From positions 96,682-156,805 of the forward strand of contig JAZGGI010000016.1 of NCBI GenBank assembly GCA_036480375.1: a stretch of 60,124 nt of DNA. The letters are read 5' to 3'. The translations under genes and the position numbers were made by a program. The notes beneath the pieces were generated by a model. It was given only the letters and a program-made list of their open reading frames with translations, was not told the DNA's origin and did no database searches. This DNA is from Candidatus Zixiibacteriota bacterium (GTDB lineage: Bacteria; Zixibacteria; MSB-5A5; GN15; JAAZOE01). Below are positions 1,440-13,516 of this stretch, one piece after another (within the stretch, counting starts at the first letter, position 1; every line of letters begins with the position of its first letter).

Positions 1440-3608
1440 ATGTATATACCCGATATTGGAATTAGCATAATGCGGACGTATAAGGTCTGTGTTGTATCTA
1501 TTTGCCTATTATCGTTTTTTTCGATGGCTGTTTGTGCCGGAGAGGTATCTGACATTAACGAGTTGGATTTTGATGGACTGTTGGATGATATCGTTTTTTC
1601 TGCGTCAAGGCATGCTGAAACCCTTGAAGAATCTCCGGCCAATGTATTTATCATCACCAAGGAGATGATAGATAATTTCGGATTTTTAGATATAGGTGAG
1701 GCTCTATCGGTAGTACCCGGTTTGTATATCACCGATGATTATTCTCTTTCACAAATCGGGGTACGAGGCATTTCCGCTTTTGGCGCTTGGAATTCACATG
1801 TAATGGTACTGGTCAATGGGCGGCCGATAACAGAACAATATGCCGGAACGAATAGTATTGATTTACCGGGCGTTGATATCGGAGATATCGAACGAATTGA
1901 AGTTATCAAAGGTCCGTCGTCTTCTATTTACGGCAGTAACGCATTCTTTGGTATTGTGAATTTAATTACGCATCAGGCTACCGATGATGAGTTGTCGCTT
2001 CGAAGTTCGTATTATTCTGAAATGGGACAAAGAAGCGGAAGTTATCGTCTATTTCACAGAGTAAATAATGATTTTCAGATTACTTCATTCGGGACGATTT
2101 TTGATCGAAAGGGCAATAGGCTGTATTTTGAGGAATTCAGTGATTTAAGCGACGGAACGCTTCTGAGCCTTGATGATGACGGGTACAATCAATTCTACCT
2201 GGACTCGACTGATTTTACGGGCGGCTATGCGGATCAGAAGAACCGAATGGAAAAATATTTTTCGCATCACCAGATAAACTGGAAGAAGTTTTACGCAACA
2301 TTACACTTCTCCAAAATGATAACCCGATTGGCTCATTCGGCATGGGGGTCGTTATTCGCCAAGGAGGATAATCATTATCGGGAAAAGAGGAATTATTTTG
2401 ATGTCGGGTACAGTAACGCTCTTTCTGAAAAAGTTGAAATTGATGCCCGGTTTTTCTACAATTATTATGAATGGTCCGATCATATCCTGTATAATTATGC
2501 CGAGTGGGAGGTGTCGCCTATTTATTTGCCGGGGCCAATCTGGGCTGATTATGAATTCAATGAATGGTATGGTGGGGATGTAAGAATTCACCTTAATCTA
2601 AGTGAAAAGAATAACATTCATTTGGGGGGCGATTTTCAGCTTCATAAAATATGGCACAGTTCCGGGGAAACCGATGCGGGTGGAGAAAGGGTTTTATCAA
2701 ACGTTATCCCTTCTGAAAACCAAAGAAATGATGGGCAAATATTTAATATTTTTGTTCAGAATGATTACAAATTTTCGGATAAGTTGAAAACCGTGGCCGG
2801 CTTACATTTTAATTACTATTCATATACAACCGCAGGTATAACGCCCAAAGCGGCGATTATTTATAAGCCTGAAAAAAACGCGAATCTGAAGTTTATTGTC
2901 AGCCGCGGTTTTCGTTCACCGTCATTTTATGAAATAACATATACAGATGAGGAGTATTACGCTCCGAATCCCGATCTGGAACCGGAAAATATTACCAGTT
3001 TTGAATTGATTGCATCTTATGACTTTCCTTATGGAGTTTCGTTTGAAATAGCGGGTAACCACAGCCGTATGGCTGATTTAATTCTTCAATCATATCTTGA
3101 TATTTCCGACCCAAATCATCCGGGCGAGGATTTTGTTGATGGAACTTTACAATTCCGCAATAGCGGAAAACTGCATTCCAATAGTATTGAATTGAGTTTC
3201 AAAAGGAATCCGATTTACCGTCTAAGCGGTTTTGGGAATATTACGTATCAAAAGCTTGACAATTCCTCCGGAAGCGAAGATGGTGTCGCCTATAATTCGC
3301 CTCGGTGGTTGGGGAATTTGGGAGTAACATACCAAGTCCTTCCGCGAAAAATAAATTTATCATCGCGCATAAGATATATATCGACCAGGGCACTATGGGA
3401 TGGTACCTGGCTGAAGAGTAATACCTTAGTTGACGTTAATATTTATGCTCCGAAATTATTCGGTCAAACCAGCTTTACCCTGGGAGTAAAGAACTTATTT
3501 GACGAAGAATATCGTGAGCCGATGGCTTATGATTATTATCCAACGGCAAGTATTGTACGTCCGGGGCGATCCATATATTTAAAATTATCTACCGCGCTGA
3601 ATTGGTAG
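1440..3608 (+). CDS. TonB-dependent outer-membrane receptor
   Basis: An outer-membrane gated barrel that takes up a bound ligand (siderophore, cobalamin-like or other) using TonB energy. The start is ATG 1440, 5 bases after AAAGGAG; a TTG at 1425 overlaps that ribosome site. The protein has 722 residues. A signal peptide core (MRTYKVCVVSICLLSFF) begins at the in-frame ATG 1470 and ends near AVCAGE, so 1470 is an alternative start. The plug domain follows (SASRHAETLEESPANVFIITKEMI, GVRGIS, VMVLVNGRP, IERIEVIKGPSSSIYG). The barrel ends with a C-terminal aromatic segment (LKLSTALNW). It resembles vitamin B12 and ferri-enterochelin type receptors, but the ligand cannot be read from sequence. It is the first gene of a set with a YfiR-like protein (gap 24 bases) and a hybrid kinase, so its ligand may also be a signal. 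Confidence 0.93.
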   Translation: MYIPDIGISIMRTYKVCVVSICLLSFFSMAVCAGEVSDINELDFDGLLDDIVFSASRHAETLEESPANVFIITKEMIDNFGFLDIGEALSVVPGLYITDDYSLSQIGVRGISAFGAWNSHVMVLVNGRPITEQYAGTNSIDLPGVDIGDIERIEVIKGPSSSIYGSNAFFGIVNLITHQATDDELSLRSSYYSEMGQRSGSYRLFHRVNNDFQITSFGTIFDRKGNRLYFEEFSDLSDGTLLSLDDDGYNQFYLDSTDFTGGYADQKNRMEKYFSHHQINWKKFYATLHFSKMITRLAHSAWGSLFAKEDNHYREKRNYFDVGYSNALSEKVEIDARFFYNYYEWSDHILYNYAEWEVSPIYLPGPIWADYEFNEWYGGDVRIHLNLSEKNNIHLGGDFQLHKIWHSSGETDAGGERVLSNVIPSENQRNDGQIFNIFVQNDYKFSDKLKTVAGLHFNYYSYTTAGITPKAAIIYKPEKNANLKFIVSRGFRSPSFYEITYTDEEYYAPNPDLEPENITSFELIASYDFPYGVSFEIAGNHSRMADLILQSYLDISDPNHPGEDFVDGTLQFRNSGKLHSNSIELSFKRNPIYRLSGFGNITYQKLDNSSGSEDGVAYNSPRWLGNLGVTYQVLPRKINLSSRIRYISTRALWDGTWLKSNTLVDVNIYAPKLFGQTSFTLGVKNLFDEEYREPMAYDYYPTASIVRPGRSIYLKLSTALNW

Positions 3609-3632
3609 CTGGGTGGAAAGCGGCTATTTGAA

Positions 3633-4238
3633 ATGATTTTTGGGTTGAAATATATCAATAGAGGCGCGTTGTATTTGGCTTTATTAAACGCGATATTTAT
3701 TATCGGTGTATATGGCCATCAGGCGGATCGAGTGGATCCAAAGCTGAGCCTGCCTCTATTTTTAAAAATTATCACATGTGACTTCAATTTTAATTCTGAT
3801 AAATTTGAAAACGTCCATATCCGGATATTGTATGATAAAGGCAACGCGGATGCTTATGAGGAATACCAAATTGCCTGTGATTTCATGTCTCGAAATTCAG
3901 ATTTAAAAATAGAAGGATTGGATATTATTTTTGAAGGCGTTAACTTTTTCTCACCTGATTCAATTCTTAATGGTTATGACAGCCAAAATTACAATGTATT
4001 AATTATTGCCGGGAATAATGAGAATGGTCTGGAAGAACTTTTAGACAAATTGTCAGAGAGTAATATTCGCACGTTTTCGTTTAATCCCGAGTTAATCAGT
4101 AACGGTATCGCTGTCAGCGTTAAGGCTCAAGAAAAGAAGAATTCAATTATTGTCAATTTGGATGCGGCTCAATCAGAGGGGAGTAAATTTGGAGCTCATT
4201 TGCTTAAAATGTGCAGCATTTATGAAGGGGCCAGATAG
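3633..4238 (+). CDS. YfiR-like (DUF4154) periplasmic protein
   Basis: A 201-residue protein with an N-terminal hydrophobic segment (residues about 10-28, ALYLALLNAIFIIGVYG) that fits a signal peptide. The body follows the YfiR/HmsC plan: an N-terminal helix (LPLFLKIITCDFN), a central strand NVLIIAG, and the typical tail FSFNPELISNGIAVSV, then SIIVNLDAAQSEGSKFGAHLLKMCSIYE, which matches the family pattern INL-AA--AGLK-S--LLKLA-I. In Pseudomonas, YfiR is a periplasmic repressor of the CHASE8 diguanylate cyclase YfiN. The two disulphide cysteine pairs of Pseudomonas YfiR are not conserved here. The gene sits 3 bases before the kinase gene, so the kinase is the likely partner. The assignment rests on motif pattern, not on a profile search. 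No strong Shine-Dalgarno is seen. Confidence 0.7.
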   Translation: MIFGLKYINRGALYLALLNAIFIIGVYGHQADRVDPKLSLPLFLKIITCDFNFNSDKFENVHIRILYDKGNADAYEEYQIACDFMSRNSDLKIEGLDIIFEGVNFFSPDSILNGYDSQNYNVLIIAGNNENGLEELLDKLSESNIRTFSFNPELISNGIAVSVKAQEKKNSIIVNLDAAQSEGSKFGAHLLKMCSIYEGAR

Positions 4239-4241
4239 CTA

Positions 4242-6980
4242 ATGATGAATCTGACGCTCAGGACAAAAATAATCGCATTGGTCGTATCAATAGTTACGGT
4301 TTCTCTCTCATTTTTGATAATACTGACATATGTTCACCTCTCTGATCGATTGCATCAAAATTTGGAAGAAAAGGCAATAAGTATATCCGCTATGGTATCG
4401 AAGAATGTCGGTCCCGGTTTGGATTTTCAGGACAGCATTTATGTCGCGGAAATCGCTTCGGGAGTTTTTGAAGATCAGGATGTTAGAGCTGTTGTTATTT
4501 ATGACGATAATGATGACCATTATTACTCCCACATAAGCGATACAAATTTAATCCGGCTGGCTCAAGGATGTAATCATCCAGATACGCCTGCAATTGAGCA
4601 TGATAACGAATATTGCATTATCAAGTATCCGATTACTTATAAAAACGCCAAAGTAGGGTGTCTATGGCTGGCCATAACCGGCGAAAATATGATGGGTAAG
4701 GTAGCCTCCAGCTTCCTATTCATAATTGGCGGGGCTTTCATAATACTGACTTTGTCGTTTTTTATTGGCTTTGGGATATCCTCTAAAATTGTCAAACCTA
4801 TCAAAATATTTGAAAAGGCGGCCTGCTTAATTAGTTCGGGAAATATGCGGACCCAAATAGAATTGAATGAGCTTGATAAGGACTTTATGCCTCTGGGAAT
4901 GGCATTTAATGATATGCAGGGGGTATTAGGAAAGGCATTTGACGATTTAAATAAATCCCGTGATTTACTTGAATATCAGGTGAAGGAACGAACCAAAGAA
5001 TTAACCAGCGAATTGCTGGAAAGGAAACGCGCGGAGGAAGAGTTAAGCAAATCCAAACAGAAGTTAATGCTCCATGTTCAGCAAACTCCATTGGGTGTCA
5101 TTGAATGGGATTTGGATTTTTGCGTAACTGAATGGAATAAATCCGCTGAAACAATATTTGGATATAGTCGTGAGGAGGCTATCGGATGCCATCCCAAAGA
5201 TATAATCCTGCCGGAATATGAAATCCCTCAATTAGACACGATCTGGGAAAACCTACTAGGCCAAAAGGGCGGTAATCGGAGTACCAATGATAATAGTCAC
5301 AAAGATGGTCGAATTCTCAAATGTGAGTGGTATAATACGCCACTGGTAAATGAAGACGGCGATGTCATTGGCATTGCTTCTCTGGTACAGGATGTTACCG
5401 AACAGCATAGAACTCTTACCGCGTTAAAGGAAGGTGAGGAATTATTACGAGCGACTCTGGAATCCACCGCAGATGGAATATTGGTAGTCAATAATAAGGG
5501 TAGTGTTACGCATGCCAACACCCGCTTCGCTGATATGTGGCATATACCGCCTGATCTATTTGAGAGCCGCGATGATGAAAAACTTTTAACTCATGTATTG
5601 GAACAATTAGAGAATCCTGATGAATTCCTTACTAAGGTACAGGAATTATATAAGTCCGATCTTGAGGCAAAGGACACAATTGGTTTTAAGGATGGCCGCG
5701 TCTTTGAGAGATTTACCTGTCCTTTGGTTCAGGACGCGATGGTGACCGGACGAGTCTGGAGTTTTCGCGATATAACAGACAAGAAACGTGAAGAAGAGCA
5801 ACGGCAGCGTTTGCAGGAACAATTGGAACGAGCCGAGAGGATGGAATCTTTGGGTATTCTGGCCGGCGGTGTGGCACATGATTTGAATAATATGCTGGGG
5901 CCAGTGGTTGGCTACGCTGAATTGATTCTGGCCGGGCTTGACGAGGAAAGTAAAGTCGGCAAAAGAGTCAAAAAGATCGGTAAATCGGCCCAGGATGCCG
6001 CTAATGTCATTCAGGATTTGTTAACTCTGGCGCGACGCGGGCGATATGAGCTGACTGCAATCAATATCAATGAGGTCATAGAATCATATCAGGATTCTCC
6101 CAGTTACTTGAAACTATGTCAAACAAATCCAAATGTTAATATTGATTTAAATTTGGATCCGGATTTACCGAACATTAACGGATCATCGCCTCATTTATTA
6201 AAAGCTGTAATGAATTTGATTGTCAACGCTTTTGATGCCATGCCTGAAGGGGGCGGCCTTACGATTTCCTCAGGCAAAGAAAATATCGATGTATTAATTG
6301 ATGGATATAAAGTTGAAGAACCGGGAGAATATATTGTTGTATGCGTTTCTGATACTGGTATGGGTATCGCCGAAGAGGATATTGGAAAAATATTCGAACC
6401 CTATTATTCTAAAAAGAAAATGGGTACCAGTGGGAGCGGCCTGGGGCTGTCGGTGGTTTATGGTGTTGTCAAAGATCACGGTGGTTATTACGATATTGTG
6501 TCCCGGATTGGGAAAGGCACTAAATTTATATTGTATTTCCCGGTTACCGATGAGCCGACGGAGAATAAATACGAAGCGGATATGAATATATCGGGGACGG
6601 AGACGGTGCTTATTGTTGATGATGTTGAGGAGCAAAGAGATATTGCCGGAGAAATGCTGTCGAGTCTGGGATATAAGGTGGCAACGGCGGAGAATGGCAC
6701 CGAAGCGATAAGTATTTTGAAGGGGCGGAAATTTGATATAATCATTATCGATATGATTATGGAGAAGAATCTGGATGGGCTCGATACCTACCGCAAAATC
6801 CTTGAGATTAAGCAGGGACAAAAGGCGATAATTGTAAGTGGATATTCGGCGACCGAACGGGTAACTGAAATGCAAAAACTTGGCGCCGGAAAGTATGTCA
6901 AAAAGCCATACTCTCGTAAGGCTATAGGCATGGCTCTCAGAAACGAGCTTGATAAAAAGTCTGAATCTATAAAAGTGTAA
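4242..6980 (+). CDS. Hybrid sensor histidine kinase (CHASE8-like-HAMP-PAS-PAS-HisKA-HATPase-REC)
   Basis: A 912-residue inner-membrane kinase. TM1 covers residues 10-31. A periplasmic region of about 40-150 resembles CHASE8 (LDFQDSIYVAEIASGVFEDQDVRAVVIYDD). TM2 covers 156-178. Then come HAMP (180-233), a coiled coil (235-275), PAS at 275-395, PAS at 400-515, HisKA with phospho-acceptor His546 (GGVAHDLNNMLG), HATPase with N box (NLIVNAFDAM), G1 (DTGMGI) and G2 (GSGLGLSVVYG), and a C-terminal REC with Asp837 (IIIIDMIM) and lysine KKPYS. ATG 4242 is followed by a second ATG at 4245. It is placed directly after the YfiR-like gene, and CHASE8 is the domain that YfiR controls in YfiN. I infer that the YfiR-like protein gates this kinase. 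No DNA-binding regulator lies next to it, so the output is unknown. Confidence 0.92.
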   Translation: MMNLTLRTKIIALVVSIVTVSLSFLIILTYVHLSDRLHQNLEEKAISISAMVSKNVGPGLDFQDSIYVAEIASGVFEDQDVRAVVIYDDNDDHYYSHISDTNLIRLAQGCNHPDTPAIEHDNEYCIIKYPITYKNAKVGCLWLAITGENMMGKVASSFLFIIGGAFIILTLSFFIGFGISSKIVKPIKIFEKAACLISSGNMRTQIELNELDKDFMPLGMAFNDMQGVLGKAFDDLNKSRDLLEYQVKERTKELTSELLERKRAEEELSKSKQKLMLHVQQTPLGVIEWDLDFCVTEWNKSAETIFGYSREEAIGCHPKDIILPEYEIPQLDTIWENLLGQKGGNRSTNDNSHKDGRILKCEWYNTPLVNEDGDVIGIASLVQDVTEQHRTLTALKEGEELLRATLESTADGILVVNNKGSVTHANTRFADMWHIPPDLFESRDDEKLLTHVLEQLENPDEFLTKVQELYKSDLEAKDTIGFKDGRVFERFTCPLVQDAMVTGRVWSFRDITDKKREEEQRQRLQEQLERAERMESLGILAGGVAHDLNNMLGPVVGYAELILAGLDEESKVGKRVKKIGKSAQDAANVIQDLLTLARRGRYELTAININEVIESYQDSPSYLKLCQTNPNVNIDLNLDPDLPNINGSSPHLLKAVMNLIVNAFDAMPEGGGLTISSGKENIDVLIDGYKVEEPGEYIVVCVSDTGMGIAEEDIGKIFEPYYSKKKMGTSGSGLGLSVVYGVVKDHGGYYDIVSRIGKGTKFILYFPVTDEPTENKYEADMNISGTETVLIVDDVEEQRDIAGEMLSSLGYKVATAENGTEAISILKGRKFDIIIIDMIMEKNLDGLDTYRKILEIKQGQKAIIVSGYSATERVTEMQKLGAGKYVKKPYSRKAIGMALRNELDKKSESIKV

Positions 6981-6995
6981 CGAATAAAAAAGCGT

Positions 6996-7037
6996 AAAAA
7001 AAAACCGGCCGTATTTGAATATGCGACCGGGTTTTTT
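6996..7037. terminator. Bidirectional intrinsic terminator between convergent genes
   Basis: Stem 7005-7014 with 7021-7030 (CCGGCCGTAT / ATGCGACCGG, one C-A mismatch and one G-T pair). It is flanked by nine A on the left (6996-7004) and six T on the right (7032-7037). It serves the kinase on + and the large receptor on -. Confidence 0.85.
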
Positions 7038-7052
7038 CTTGATTTGATTTTA

Positions 7053-9914
7053 TCAGAAAGACTGTGTCAGTCTAACAATAGTCAAACGGCCCAGTTCGGG
7101 AGCGCCGACAAATTCCGAATGCATATTATCAAGGACATTCTGAATAGTCAAAGCCAGATGCGTATCATGCATGAAATCTATGCCGGCATTGAAATCAAGC
7201 AGGTGATAGGTACTAACATACGAACCGAAAAACGGGCTGGCCATATCGAAGGCATCAACATAACGATACCTCAAATTCGCGCTTAGCTTGTATTTGGGAT
7301 ATTGATATTGAATATAGGCAGAGCCTTTATATTTGGGGGCGTTCAGATGAATATCGTGAACCTGTCCCTCCTTCTTTTCGAAGAAATTCCTGGATATATA
7401 GGAAAAGGTTCCGCCGAAATCCCAATTCTGATTGAGGTGATAAGCTAATGAGAAATCGGCGCCGTAGAAATTGATATCGCCAAAATTGCGGTAGGTAATC
7501 AATATCGCCGTTGGATCGAAGGCTTCATCGGGAGTGATGGTGCCGAAAGGTATACCAGCGGGGGTGGTAAGAAACATAGTTATCAATTCATCAATTGGAC
7601 CGTTTCCATTCGCATCAAGAAAATCCAAGGCTGCTGAATCTGCCGGATTAGTAGAAATATTGGATCCAATCTGATTGGTTAGAAATGATTGCAGAGCTAC
7701 TGGGTCCAAAAATACGTTGGGTGTTTCAACGGTTAGTGGGCCGATAAAGTTTTCTTTATCGGTTCGGTATAAATCAACTCCGAATTTTAGGCGATCACCA
7801 ATAAGGCCGTTATATCCAAGCTCTATAGTTTGAGTAATAGTTGGCTCAAGCCTATCAATATCTGCAATAGCATCGACATTCGATGCATCAAGTTCGCCGG
7901 TATCCATGTTAAGCGTCATTAGTCGATTTCCAACGCCAGCAATCATACCTGGAACTAATGTCTCAATAGAGTTTTCCAAAAAAGCGATTGTCGCAGAGTC
8001 ATATCCCGCGGATGCTAAATCAGCCTTAAATCCACCAATTACTGCATCTCGACCAACACTCCACATGAATGCTGTAAAGATGGGGTCATTAAGACTTATG
8101 AATCCGTCTGCTGGAATAGGCACGCTATTGAGTTGTGCTATTGGCGTGAATGTCGAGCGAAATTGCGGATTCCCATTATCATCAAAGCGCCAGTGGAATC
8201 CTGTCTCAGGAACGCCCTGAACCCGTACGTCAATACCCGGATTATATCCATTAAGCGCAGGGGCAAATCTTTCACCCATGCCACCCATATCGGCCAGGGA
8301 TAGAATATCGAGAAACAAGTTATTATTATCAGGGGTGCTGAAGGCGCGGTTGTAAGTTACCCTGAGACTATGGTTTTTGGTTGGCTTATAAGCGAGGGCG
8401 GCGCGGGGAGAGACTACCAGGTCTTTTAATCGGTTATGGTCGTCGATGCGAATAGCGCCGAGGAGTTTTAATTTGGGATCGATTTTATATTCGCCCTGAA
8501 AGTATCCGCCGAATTCATTGATTTTATCATCGTCTTCGTTTCTGCCATTAATGGTTGCCTCAGTGTTGGGACGGGTTAAGAGGGCGTCAAATCCGTAGGT
8601 AAAAGATAGTTTATCCTGAGGGGTATAGCGGTGCTGTATCTGTCCGGCCCAGACTTTGGATTTGTCAATAATTAATTGCCCGGTCTGAAGTAGATAAGTG
8701 TCACCGGCATCGCTGGTATTAAGAAAAGTCTGAGCGAATAGATTTTTATATCTGAAGCGAGCCTGGCCATAGGCATAAATCCAGTCGATAGCCTGGCCGG
8801 CGCCAAGTCCGGTTAGCTCGATACTACTTGAACGGCTGAAGCCTCCGTTGAAAATCAGGGAAGCGTCATCACCAATCAGGAAATCCAGTCGGCCCTCACC
8901 CGACAATTTTTCAATATTGAAATCCCGTTTGTTTTCGAATGGTTCACCTACAAAAACAGGACCTTTGTTGGTAGGACGGAAGTTTTGGATTATCGGTTTT
9001 TCCAATTCGGCTTTTTCGTAATGCTTCCAATCCAGACCCTGATAGTATTGAGCGGTCAGTTTATATCCGATGCGGTCGCCCGCCAAACCGGCATGGCGGA
9101 AAGATCCCAAAAATAGTTCGCGTTCACCACCGCCGATGCTTACGGTTGTACCCTGATGCGAAAATGGCGATTTGGTGATCATGTGCATGACGCCAGAGGC
9201 GGCATTGGGACCGTATAGCGCTGAGCCCGGGCCGGAGACAATTTCAATGCGTTCGATATCTTCATTAATCGTGGGGATAAAATTGTAGGCGTTAAAACGC
9301 AGCGAAGGAATGCGGGCATTACGGTTGTCGGTTAAGACCAAAAGAGCTCCGGAAAAGATATTATTGAAACCGCGAACGACGGCATTGGATTGGTTTAGAC
9401 CGGTGGTGGCGACATCAACGGCGGTTGCTCCTTTAATATGTTCCGTAAGGGTCAAAACCGTACGGGATTCGATGGCTTTGGAGTCGATGACATTAACAGA
9501 GGCGGGAGCATCGACAATCTTTTCGGGGCGACGGGATACACTGACAGAGACAGCATCCATATTAATAAAGGTCGAAGCCAGACTGGCTGTTATCGTTTTT
9601 GTTTCGGATTCGCCAATCGTTACATTTGAAATGGTATGCGGAGAATATCCCATTGATGATATAGAGATGTTATATGCGCCGGCAGGAAGATTTTTAATTT
9701 CATAATTGCCGTTTTCGTCCGTCATGGTTCCGGTAGATTTTCCGCCGGCGACCGGGGTAATGGAAACGGTGGCCCGGTATAAGGCGACTCCGTCCGCCTT
9801 ATCGGTAACCTGACCCGAAATGGTTCCTGCTGATGCTGCGCCGGATGTAATAAAGAATAACAGCGCAATAAGCAGAATCGGAGTCGAAACCTTTTTAAGT
9901 TTAGCGATATCCAT
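7053..9914 (-). CDS. Large TonB-dependent receptor with CarboxypepD_reg-like N-terminal domain
   Basis: A 953-residue outer-membrane receptor. ATG 9914 follows AAAAGGATAATAATT. Signal peptide about residues 1-29 (LLIALLFFITSGAASA). A carboxypeptidase-regulatory-like beta domain follows at about 30-108 (GTISGQVTDKADGVALYRATVSI, GNYEIKNLPAGAYNISI), as in SusC-type receptors. Then the plug (SVSRRPEKIVDAPASVNVI, IERIEIVSGPGSALYGPNAASGVMHMIT), then the barrel to a final Phe (RLTQSF). A long loop at about 580-800 is rich in Asp and Asn and holds an EF-hand-like segment DANGNGPIDELI. There is no SusD gene, so the SusC resemblance is only domain-level. It is convergent with the kinase gene and shares the terminator. 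The substrate is unknown. Confidence 0.92.
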   Translation of the reverse strand: MDIAKLKKVSTPILLIALLFFITSGAASAGTISGQVTDKADGVALYRATVSITPVAGGKSTGTMTDENGNYEIKNLPAGAYNISISSMGYSPHTISNVTIGESETKTITASLASTFINMDAVSVSVSRRPEKIVDAPASVNVIDSKAIESRTVLTLTEHIKGATAVDVATTGLNQSNAVVRGFNNIFSGALLVLTDNRNARIPSLRFNAYNFIPTINEDIERIEIVSGPGSALYGPNAASGVMHMITKSPFSHQGTTVSIGGGERELFLGSFRHAGLAGDRIGYKLTAQYYQGLDWKHYEKAELEKPIIQNFRPTNKGPVFVGEPFENKRDFNIEKLSGEGRLDFLIGDDASLIFNGGFSRSSSIELTGLGAGQAIDWIYAYGQARFRYKNLFAQTFLNTSDAGDTYLLQTGQLIIDKSKVWAGQIQHRYTPQDKLSFTYGFDALLTRPNTEATINGRNEDDDKINEFGGYFQGEYKIDPKLKLLGAIRIDDHNRLKDLVVSPRAALAYKPTKNHSLRVTYNRAFSTPDNNNLFLDILSLADMGGMGERFAPALNGYNPGIDVRVQGVPETGFHWRFDDNGNPQFRSTFTPIAQLNSVPIPADGFISLNDPIFTAFMWSVGRDAVIGGFKADLASAGYDSATIAFLENSIETLVPGMIAGVGNRLMTLNMDTGELDASNVDAIADIDRLEPTITQTIELGYNGLIGDRLKFGVDLYRTDKENFIGPLTVETPNVFLDPVALQSFLTNQIGSNISTNPADSAALDFLDANGNGPIDELITMFLTTPAGIPFGTITPDEAFDPTAILITYRNFGDINFYGADFSLAYHLNQNWDFGGTFSYISRNFFEKKEGQVHDIHLNAPKYKGSAYIQYQYPKYKLSANLRYRYVDAFDMASPFFGSYVSTYHLLDFNAGIDFMHDTHLALTIQNVLDNMHSEFVGAPELGRLTIVRLTQSF

Positions 9915-10372: not shown

Positions 10373-11764
10373 ATGATCTATTTTTGGGTTATAATTGCCT
10401 ATTTGCTAATTTTAATCGGAGTCGGCGCTTATCGCAGTAAATATGTAAAATCACAGGATGATTTTATGGTAGCGGGGCGCAGGCTGTCTTCGAAAGTTCT
10501 GATAGGGACGCTTCTGGCAACCTGGATTGGTTCCGGTTCTATTATTGCCGGTGCGGGATTGGCGTATGATAACGGTATGCCGGCGCTTTGGTTTAACGCC
10601 GGAGTTTGGGTCGCATTGATCATCCTTTATTTCATTGCCGGACGGGTGCGGGCTTTCGCGCAATACACGGTGCCGGACATTCTGGAAGCACGCTATAACA
10701 AATGGGCACGGGTGTTGGGAACGATTGTGACGATTATCGCATATACGGCAATCGTCAGTTATCAGTTTCGGGCCGGTGGAATGGTGTTGAATCTGGTAAC
10801 AGGAATATCGGTGGACCAGGGGATAATCATTACGGCTCTGTTTGTAATCGGCTACACTGTCCTGGCCGGAATGATATCGGTCGCCTATACCGATGTCGTC
10901 AACGGCATAATCATGGTTGTCGGGTTTTTCGTCGCACTACCTTTTTTCCTTGATAACGCCGGAGGATGGAGCGGGGTGATGGCACGTTTGCCGGAGACTC
11001 ATTTTGAGCCTCTGGGAAAACTGACTTTATTCGAGGCACTGGCTTATTCGCTCCCGACAATGTTATTACTCCTGGGTGAATCGGGTATGTATCAAAGGTT
11101 TTTTTCGGCTCGTAATGAAAATACGGCCAAAAGAGCTGTTATTGGATGGATTATCGGAACGATTATCGTCGAGACGCTAATTGTAGTATTGGCCATAATA
11201 GGAAGCGCGCTGTTTACCGATATCGAATCGGAAATGGTAATATTGCATTCGGTGCGATTTGGTTTGCCGCTATTAATCGGATGCTTATGCCTGGCGGCGA
11301 TAGTCGCCGTTATTGTATCGACGGCAGATTCGTTTTTGCTTGTGCCGGCGACGAACGTGATGCGGGACATATATCAACGATTTATTAATCCTGATATATC
11401 TCAAAAGCAAATGGTCTTATATCTGCGTATAGTTGTCGTGTTATTGGGAGTGATCGCTTTTGTGCAGGTTAGATATTTTACAAAAATTTTGGAGATGGCG
11501 ATTTACGCTTACACTATGTACGGTGTGGGTATCACACCGGCGTTACTGGGGGCGTTTTTCTGGAAGCGGGCTACGGCCGCGGGGGGAGTGAGTTCTATCG
11601 CATCCGGTATGCTGGTAACCCTAATCTGGGAATTTGGAAATCAGCCGTTCGATATTCCAACGGTTTATCCGGCACTGGGTATTTCTCTTTTTTGTTTGAT
11701 TATCGGGAGCCTGATTACGGAAAAACCATCGGCTGAAAAATGGAAACCATTTTATAGTAAATGA
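10373..11764 (+). CDS. Sodium:solute symporter (SSS family)
   Basis: A 463-residue inner-membrane protein with about 13 hydrophobic spans, the usual SSS size. The first span is FWVIIAYLLILIGVGAY, followed by the family segment SQDDFMVAGRRLSSKVLIGTLLATWIGSGSIIAGAG. The Na+-site motif is in IVSTADSFLLVPATNVMRDIYQ. Substrates of this family include amino acids, pantothenate, urea, nucleosides and organic acids; the sequence does not say which. ATG 10373 follows GGGAAAGG with good spacing. It is 27 bases ahead of the lipoprotein amidohydrolase and probably co-transcribed, which suggests it imports the product or substrate of that enzyme. Confidence 0.92.
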   Translation: MIYFWVIIAYLLILIGVGAYRSKYVKSQDDFMVAGRRLSSKVLIGTLLATWIGSGSIIAGAGLAYDNGMPALWFNAGVWVALIILYFIAGRVRAFAQYTVPDILEARYNKWARVLGTIVTIIAYTAIVSYQFRAGGMVLNLVTGISVDQGIIITALFVIGYTVLAGMISVAYTDVVNGIIMVVGFFVALPFFLDNAGGWSGVMARLPETHFEPLGKLTLFEALAYSLPTMLLLLGESGMYQRFFSARNENTAKRAVIGWIIGTIIVETLIVVLAIIGSALFTDIESEMVILHSVRFGLPLLIGCLCLAAIVAVIVSTADSFLLVPATNVMRDIYQRFINPDISQKQMVLYLRIVVVLLGVIAFVQVRYFTKILEMAIYAYTMYGVGITPALLGAFFWKRATAAGGVSSIASGMLVTLIWEFGNQPFDIPTVYPALGISLFCLIIGSLITEKPSAEKWKPFYSK

Positions 11765-11791
11765 ATTTAAATTGAATACAGGGAGAAATAA

Positions 11792-13516
11792 ATGAATAGA
11801 AAAAATTGTCTATCTAAATTAAGATTGATTGGTCCGATTATCTTTGCCGCGATACTGTTGATCCTGAATTCATGTGGTACATCGCCGGAAATAGCTGATT
11901 TAGTTTTGCTAAATGGTAAAATTGTGACGGTCGATGAGAATAACCCACAGGTCGAGGCGGTCGCGGCCAAAGGTGACAAAATAATAGCGATTGGCAAGAG
12001 TAGGGACATCCAGGCTTATGTGGGGTCCTATACTCAAACAATTGATCTTGAAGGCAAACTGGTAATACCCGGGTTTATAGAAGGACATGGGCACTTTATG
12101 GGTTTGGGACGAAGCCGCATGAAACTGAGATTGGCCGAAGCTAAAAACTGGAATGAAATTGTTGAGATGGTTCGCAAAGCGGTTGACGAGGCTCAACCCG
12201 GGGAATGGATACTGGGGCGCGGGTGGCATCAGGATAAATGGGATGAGATACCAAATCCGAATGTTAACGGGCTGCCTTATCATACGGAATTGAGCGAAGT
12301 ATCTCCTGACAATCGGGTGCTTCTTGAACATGCCAGCGGTCATTCGGTAATTGCCAATGCCAAAGCTTTGGAATTGGCCGGTATCGATAGAAATACTCCT
12401 GATCCGAAAGGCGGTGAAATAGTCCGGGACGCAAAGGGAAATCCGATCGGTGTATTTCGTGAAACGGCAGAAGACCTGATCTATGATCCTTACAAGGGAT
12501 ATTATGATAATCGCTCTGAAGAAGAAATTGAGGCCGAGCGGCTCAAGGCGGTGCAATTGGCCGTTGAGGAATGTTTGGCCAATGGGGTTACCGGTTTTCA
12601 CGACGCGGGAGTAACATTCAGGACTATTGATTTTTATAAGGAATTAATTGATCGGGGAATATTAAATATCCGAATAAACGCAATGATCGGGGAAAAATAT
12701 GATAGCTTAATCGGTTGTCTTGGGGATTATAAGATAATCGGATATGGAAATAATCATTTAACGGTGCGCTCAATAAAACGGGTGATAGACGGCGCGTTGG
12801 GTTCGCACGGAGCCTGGCTTTTGGAGCCTTATATTGATATCCCGACGAGTACCGGTCTAAATACCGAAACTATCGAGGATATGCGGGAAACGGCTCGATT
12901 GGCTGTCGAAAATGGATTTCAATTGTGTACTCATGCTATCGGAGATAGAGGTAATCGGGAAACTCTGGATATTTACGAGGGAGCCATTGCGGGCGGTAAA
13001 GATTTGCGCTGGCGAATTGAACACGCGCAGCATTTGCATCCGGATGATATTCCAAGATTTGGACAATTGGGGGTAATAGCCTCAATGCAGGGAATCCATT
13101 GCACGTCCGATGGTCCCTGGGTAAATAAACGGCTCGACGATAAACGGATTGAGGAAGGCGCGTATGTGTGGCGTACGTTAATAAATTCGGGAGCGAAGAT
13201 TGTCAACGGTACCGATACTCCGGTTGAAAATGTAAATCCGCTGGAATGTTTTTACGCTTCGGTGACACGGAAACTGCCGGACGGCTCGCTATTTTATCCG
13301 GATCAAAAAATGACCCGGGAAGAAGCCCTGAAGTCGTATACGATAAATGCCGCTTATGCGTCGTATGACGAGGATATTAAAGGCTCAATCACACCCGGTA
13401 AGTTGGCTGATATGGTTGTTTTGTCCAATGATATCATGACGGTTCAGGAGGATGAAATTTCTAATTGTGAAGTTCTTTATACAATAGTGGGGGGGAAGAT
13501 TTTATACAAGAAATGA
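11792..13516 (+). CDS. Lipoprotein amidohydrolase, YtcJ-like (Amidohydro_3)
   Basis: A 574-residue metal-dependent hydrolase of the TIM-barrel amidohydrolase superfamily. A lipoprotein signal with lipobox LNSC (Cys28) places it at the envelope, unlike the usually cytoplasmic YtcJ relatives. The fold starts with ADLVLLNGKIVTVDE. The metal ligand pair HxH is His99/His101 in VIPGFIEGHGHF. Later ligands lie in LCTHAIGDRGNRE, IEHAQHL and NGTDTPVENVNP, and the family tail is ITPGKLADMVVLS. Such enzymes cut C-N bonds in amides, formamides or cyclic ureides; the true substrate is unknown. ATG 11792 follows GGGAG. The neighbours are a symporter and molybdenum hydroxylase subunits, so a role in use of an N-containing compound is likely. 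Confidence 0.9.
   Translation: MNRKNCLSKLRLIGPIIFAAILLILNSCGTSPEIADLVLLNGKIVTVDENNPQVEAVAAKGDKIIAIGKSRDIQAYVGSYTQTIDLEGKLVIPGFIEGHGHFMGLGRSRMKLRLAEAKNWNEIVEMVRKAVDEAQPGEWILGRGWHQDKWDEIPNPNVNGLPYHTELSEVSPDNRVLLEHASGHSVIANAKALELAGIDRNTPDPKGGEIVRDAKGNPIGVFRETAEDLIYDPYKGYYDNRSEEEIEAERLKAVQLAVEECLANGVTGFHDAGVTFRTIDFYKELIDRGILNIRINAMIGEKYDSLIGCLGDYKIIGYGNNHLTVRSIKRVIDGALGSHGAWLLEPYIDIPTSTGLNTETIEDMRETARLAVENGFQLCTHAIGDRGNRETLDIYEGAIAGGKDLRWRIEHAQHLHPDDIPRFGQLGVIASMQGIHCTSDGPWVNKRLDDKRIEEGAYVWRTLINSGAKIVNGTDTPVENVNPLECFYASVTRKLPDGSLFYPDQKMTREEALKSYTINAAYASYDEDIKGSITPGKLADMVVLSNDIMTVQEDEISNCEVLYTIVGGKILYKK

Follow-up and report, generated by a model that had tools for sequence, protein, structure and literature searches.

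A TonB-dependent receptor (TBDR) of the FecA-FecR-FecI system communicates its state to an inner-membrane protein across the periplasm. Pseudomonas YfiN is repressed by YfiR through the periplasmic PAS-like domain of YfiN, and YfiR in turn is sequestered by YfiB, a lipoprotein of the outer membrane (PMC3375315, PMC4655355). The genetic work of Malone et al. 2012 showed the periplasmic PAS/Cache domain of YfiN to be the site of YfiR action; the authors also listed homologues whose outputs are kinase, GGDEF-EAL or MCP, and proposed that YfiR and YfiN form a modular core. TonB is absent from the main text of that paper (PMC3375315). Pseudomonas YfiR moreover responds to DsbA loss and to DTT (PMC3375315, PMC4655355), and YfiR structures have been reported as those of protein-binding regulators (PMC4655355). 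Among TBDRs, TOL_0244 of Thalassolituus is induced on long-chain alkane, and OmpS of Alcanivorax dieselolei was reported to detect a substrate and trigger a response (PMC6304351). NCBIfam (June 2026 release) holds a trio of models, i.e., the TOL_0244 TBDR (NF053590), the TOL_0243 YfiR-like protein (NF053591) and a YfiR-associated kinase (NF053592), which give names, not a mechanism. We found no paper on TBDR-YfiR-kinase signalling in the open-access literature, to which our search extended, subscription papers lying outside it.

We analyzed a stretch of 60,124 nucleotides from a Candidatus Zixiibacteriota bacterium (the window), in which the same three components lie at positions 1440–6980, all on the + strand. 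These are a TBDR gene (1440–3608), a YfiR-like (DUF4154) gene of 201 aa (3633–4238) and a hybrid sensor histidine kinase gene of 912 aa (4242–6980). The open reading frames were found again on the same strand, adjacent and with gaps of 24 and 3 bases, as the sequence-only reading had described. Upstream of the ATG at 1440 stands a good ribosome-binding sequence (GAAAGGAGctcagATG), and the TBDR frame has a further open start, TTG, at 1425. Directly 3' of the kinase gene stands a terminator-like stem-loop with a T run (7000–7036, + strand), which is consistent with one transcript, although its folding energy is only moderately more favourable than that of shuffles (z -1.9). The three genes are presumably co-transcribed. 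The neighbours tested by Pfam are RtcB, two TBDRs, a sodium:solute symporter and an amidohydrolase; no OmpA-like lipoprotein YfiB was found among them, and no FecR or FecI (anti-sigma, sigma factor) among the adjacent genes. The second TBDR gene of the region (7053–9914) is convergent to the unit and encodes a carboxypeptidase-regulatory N-terminal domain; its product is unrelated to the TBDR of the unit in the TBDR tree and does not carry the N-terminal segment described below. Symporter and amidohydrolase lie beyond it at 10373–13516.

Like YfiB-YfiR-YfiN of P. aeruginosa, the locus combines a soluble periplasmic YfiR, an inner-membrane protein with a Cache/PAS-like domain and HAMP, and an outer-membrane partner. 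This partner is, however, a TBDR and not the OmpA-like lipoprotein YfiB, and the output is a hybrid kinase (HisKA/HATPase/REC) in place of a diguanylate cyclase (GGDEF). The gene order of the window is also that of NCBIfam trio members in the class and on Sphingobium plasmid pSRL1. The window proteins remain far below the equivalog cut-offs (NF053590, 134 of 645 bits; NF053591, 15 of 125; NF053592, 38 of 194), and window TBDR and YfiR fall into a separate clade. With the trio models at hand and YfiR-kinase pairs described in 2012, the arrangement is hence not new in kind. New here are the discrete, diverged YfiR subfamily to which the window belongs, with its own monophyletic TBDR clade, the tie of the TBDR to YfiR-kinase and not to YfiR-chemoreceptor pairs, and a receptor segment that tracks YfiR.

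The YfiR-like protein has a hydrophobic, signal-like N-terminus. Its proposed membership in DUF4154 (PF13689, YfiR/HmsC-like) was borne out by HMM search (30.5 bits, cut-off 24.9), with an alignment confined to the C-terminal half, residues 116–193. The close orthologues score only 14–18 bits and are therefore missed by PF13689. We found the subfamily starting from the closest relatives of the window sensor, where a right-sized gene with no Pfam DUF4154 lies between TBDR and kinase. The subfamily profile matched canonical DUF4154 in a profile-profile comparison (probability 98.5, E 1.9e-15, 153 columns) and identified 13 places above 200 bits, the following match dropping to 65 bits. This 'LKI' type has a distinct LKI..D start and, unlike Pseudomonas YfiR, is without the N-terminal WP motif of the ordinary family. 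A sequence search of the PDB with the subfamily profile yielded nothing relevant, whereas canonical DUF4154 relatives do match the Pseudomonas YfiR structure. Plasmid records searched with a close orthologue of the window YfiR gave no match, and an AlphaFold2 model from a four-sequence input was unusable (pLDDT 41). When Pseudomonas YfiR positions were aligned by hand through the canonical family, Phe162, regarded as central in Pseudomonas YfiR, corresponded to Ile172 in the window protein, which is invariant in the subfamily, and Leu183 to Met193, so that the proposed contact patch stays hydrophobic; the replaced Phe162 nevertheless speaks against the relay proposed below. The only cysteines are Cys49, 82 and 194, none of them at either of the two Cys-pair positions of Pseudomonas YfiR, i.e., the window protein is without its redox cysteines.

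The kinase consists of a membrane helix, a periplasmic domain, a second membrane helix, a HAMP-like linker, two PAS domains, HisKA, HATPase and a receiver. HisKA and HATPase_c (5859–6548, + strand) contain the phospho-acceptor His546 in HDLNN and an SGLGL box, and the C-terminal receiver (6606–6929, + strand) has Asp837; all features of a hybrid histidine kinase are thus present. The linker (4782–4946, + strand) was assigned from a profile match to solved HAMP domains; Pfam makes no HAMP call in the window kinase and does so in its close relatives. Between the membrane helices, Pfam and AlphaFold2 place a single-Cache sensor of CHASE8/sCache_4-like type (4332–4691, + strand). The CHASE8-like segment predicted earlier is a fair description and not a family membership, since CHASE8 (PF17152) reaches 19.1 bits against a cut-off of 27 and sCache_4 28.6 bits against 22.1. 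The best NCBIfam matches of the sensor part, DgcN/YfiN (40.5 bits) and 'HK near YfiR-like' (38.2 bits), are both far below cut-off. AlphaFold2 folded kinase residues 1–250 into a single Cache/PAS-like domain (pLDDT 84), and the modelled periplasmic part resembles the Cache/PAS-like sensor domains of WalK, CitA and LapD. As to the output, the sole Hpt protein of the genome has 597 aa, a size that would fit CheA, and no free phosphotransfer protein was therefore identified in this genome. In some relatives, response regulators or a receiver-GGDEF protein adjoin the kinase; these are possible outputs, not necessarily that of the window. At one such place (L114, G007:C20, 296–7838), another sensor kinase and a receiver-GGDEF protein come after YfiR and kinase, so that this relative of the window unit may have a c-di-GMP output.

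The window TBDR has 722 aa when read from the ATG at 1440. Plug (about 1623–1952, + strand; 77 bits) and barrel (about 2277–3497, + strand; 112.6 bits) both score over their Pfam cut-offs, and inspection showed a TonB-box-like VFSASR and a C-terminal Trp. A Pfam search of this receptor for the STN signalling domain gave no match, and signalling of the FecA type was rejected on this ground. Directly before the plug, the YfiR-linked TBDRs have an N-terminal segment in common, in the window DINELDFDGLLDDIVFSASRHAETLEESPANV (1551–1646, + strand), which includes the TonB-box-like stretch and takes the form D(I/L)xELxLExLLDxxVxSxSK. A profile of the segment gave 27 matches of at least 45 bits in the class, followed by a fragment at 30 bits and a match at 25. 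YfiR clusters hold 22 of the 27. Four more belong to TBDRs that a contig end truncates or that lie no further than about 130 bases from one; the genomes concerned contain a YfiR cluster or truncated remains of it. The remaining one is a broken relic. In the class, the profile search found no intact TBDR clearly away from YfiR with a segment of at least 45 bits. As linked receptors went into the profile, their recovery was bound to occur; what is informative is the near absence of other matches. In one YfiR-linked TBDR (L063), the segment is weak (E 0.02). At another place (L071, G045:C92, 6045–10596), two tandem TBDRs, both with the segment, precede a single YfiR and kinase. Being periplasmic and beside the TonB box, the segment is a natural candidate for the YfiR contact, and it is the most useful new lead.

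The gene order recurs in many genomes of the class, mostly Candidatus Zixiibacteriota metagenome-assembled genomes, and in other phyla, as had been expected of relatives. Across 132 class genomes, we found a DUF4154 gene no more than 2 kb away from 26 of the 27 CHASE8 matches with E below 1e-8, against a rough chance expectation of 0.3% per gene. DUF4154 and CHASE8-like genes number exactly two each in the window genome, and these form two adjacent pairs; with every gene of both kinds paired, adjacency is not due to chance. The spacing of the window pair is that of the other CHASE8/DUF4154 pairs. Neither outcome named beforehand as speaking against the unit, i.e., a lack of significant DUF4154 or CHASE8 matches or a loss of adjacency in relatives, occurred, though CHASE8 stays below its cut-off.

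The receptor is specific to one kind of pair. For 22 of 24 YfiR-kinase pairs and 0 of 13 YfiR-chemoreceptor pairs, the gene directly upstream encodes a TBDR; these were counted by hand among pairs with a visible upstream gene, three of them at contig ends (L056, L058, L065) being called as kinases from sensor homology only. As related genomes are non-independent, the Fisher p of 3e-8 is a guide only. The two YfiR-kinase pairs with no upstream TBDR are L104 and L106, and in one chemoreceptor case (L115) a TBDR lies two genes upstream. The other pair of the window genome (G000:C48, about 3677–5317; L067, L001) is of the chemoreceptor kind, with YfiR divergent to a CHASE8 chemoreceptor; it has the same input pair as the window unit and differs from it in its MCP output, its YfiR clade and the lack of an adjacent TBDR. 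Pairs like it, likewise with no adjacent TBDR, occur at 12 or more other places in the class. At L108 (G007:C51, 4495–7336), a TBDR with the receptor segment and a YfiR are followed by no kinase; the kinase partner may be encoded elsewhere in the genome, in the YfiR-kinase cluster on C20. Seven close relatives of the window sensor-kinase (L120, L124–L127, L129, L130) stand alone, with neither TBDR nor YfiR as neighbour, and four of the genomes concerned (G061, G065, G070, G124) have no detected DUF4154. This sensor type can hence work without YfiR. A search for positions that separate sensors of the three-gene units from stand-alone ones was met by a poorly resolved sensor tree that mixes both.

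Beside domain make-up, conserved order and specific pairing, the components show joint inheritance. The TBDRs linked to the YfiR subfamily of the window form one clade in the TBDR tree (support 100/99; the very long branch L063_WP is not a TBDR and is to be ignored), and the subfamily itself forms one clade in the YfiR tree (98/93). Two inner groups match in both trees, i.e., the window with G039, G044, G086 and G096, and G100 with G112; the TBDR tree also resolves G106 with G007, a grouping with which the YfiR tree is compatible. The matching subgroups cut across taxonomic families, which suggests a common transmission of receptor and go-between. The receptor, YfiR and sensor distance matrices correlate at r of 0.76–0.87 (TBDR-YfiR 0.82, YfiR-sensor 0.87), where the genes being neighbours makes some agreement of trees and matrices expected even without contact. 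The earlier proposal that the three genes are one signalling unit is well supported by the recurring order together with the agreeing receptor and YfiR trees.

Plasmid records, with the order found again in proteobacteria, provided a view beyond the phylum. Sphingobium plasmid pSRL1 carries a TBDR, a YfiR and an ATP-binding protein in order, and another Sphingobium plasmid has a similar arrangement. In Pseudoalteromonas, TBDR and YfiR are joined by a GGDEF-EAL protein whose N-terminus resembles YfiN, and plasmid pPRO1 of Pelobacter propionicus has YfiR, kinase and TBDR, next to which lie another kinase and a response regulator. With the TBDR kept while the output changes, an input fits better than a regulated target.

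We propose, with moderate confidence, that the three proteins are a co-transcribed relay from the outer to the inner membrane, in which the TBDR would be the input, YfiR the go-between and the kinase the output. Secreted YfiR would shuttle between the Cache domain of the kinase and the periplasmic face of the receptor, its probable contact there being the pre-plug N-terminal segment. If the unit works like YfiB/YfiR/YfiN, the kinase may be held in one state by free YfiR. A liganded or TonB-engaged TBDR would take up or release YfiR, and the activity of the kinase (Cache-HAMP-PAS-PAS-HisKA-HATPase-REC) would change. The TBDR would thereby occupy the place of YfiB, and its state would set the amount of YfiR free to act on the kinase. 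We infer the physical contacts, the direction and sign of the signal and its passage from receptor through YfiR to kinase. As in signalling of the FecA type, the TBDR would report across the periplasm to an inner-membrane protein, with the difference that a soluble YfiR-like protein would act as go-between and a kinase as output.

The association could also arise if the TBDR were the target, with a kinase that senses by itself or via YfiR and controls TBDR expression, the receptor sending no signal. Sensor-kinases are commonly found beside their targets, and the stand-alone kinase relatives need no TBDR. The TBDR persists, however, with a GGDEF-EAL output, which would not directly control transcription, and is absent beside MCP outputs. 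Regulation alone moreover leaves the segment of linked TBDRs unexplained, and we regard this explanation as unlikely. We are equally doubtful that YfiR is a co-sensor in the manner of a periplasmic binding protein, binding a ligand that the TBDR has imported and offering it to the Cache domain, with delivery as the only role of the receptor. The gene association fits this just as well, the window YfiR has a sub-threshold similarity to Peripla_BP_4 (15 bits, cut-off 35), and TOL_0244, which defines the sister clade of the window TBDR, is the receptor induced on long-chain alkane (PMC6304351). The window TBDR lies outside the TOL_0244 equivalog, and no alkane link can hence be claimed for it. 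YfiR structures, reported as those of protein-binding regulators (PMC4655355), speak against a co-sensor, and so does a conserved segment directly preceding the TonB box in linked receptors, which such a role does not predict.

The sequence-only reading had left receptor traffic and periplasmic state side by side as the signal source. Receptor state is favoured by the N-terminal segment of the linked receptors, and periplasmic state in its redox form is disfavoured because the paired cysteines are missing. A sensor of redox or envelope stress beside an incidental TBDR would follow what was proposed for Pseudomonas YfiR, which reacts to DsbA loss and DTT (PMC3375315, PMC4655355). With Cys49, 82 and 194 missing both Cys-pair positions and a TBDR linkage that is strong and specific, we consider such a sensor highly improbable here.

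We return to the relay from TBDR through YfiR to the kinase. That the three genes are kept and inherited together suggests that the bacterium reads its receptor and passes the message to the kinase. More tentatively, STN-less TBDRs may signal their state to inner-membrane kinases via a soluble YfiR-like go-between, bound by a short segment at the N-terminus of the receptor, with the window as a diverged branch. This branch goes unnamed by current family models, and calling YfiR by Pfam alone overlooks such units, since PF13689 misses the close orthologues of the window YfiR. The unit is a compact, testable case of how STN-less receptors could report to the cell. If true, the relay would be a third route from the outer membrane to the cytoplasm, beside FecA-type and YfiB-type signalling.
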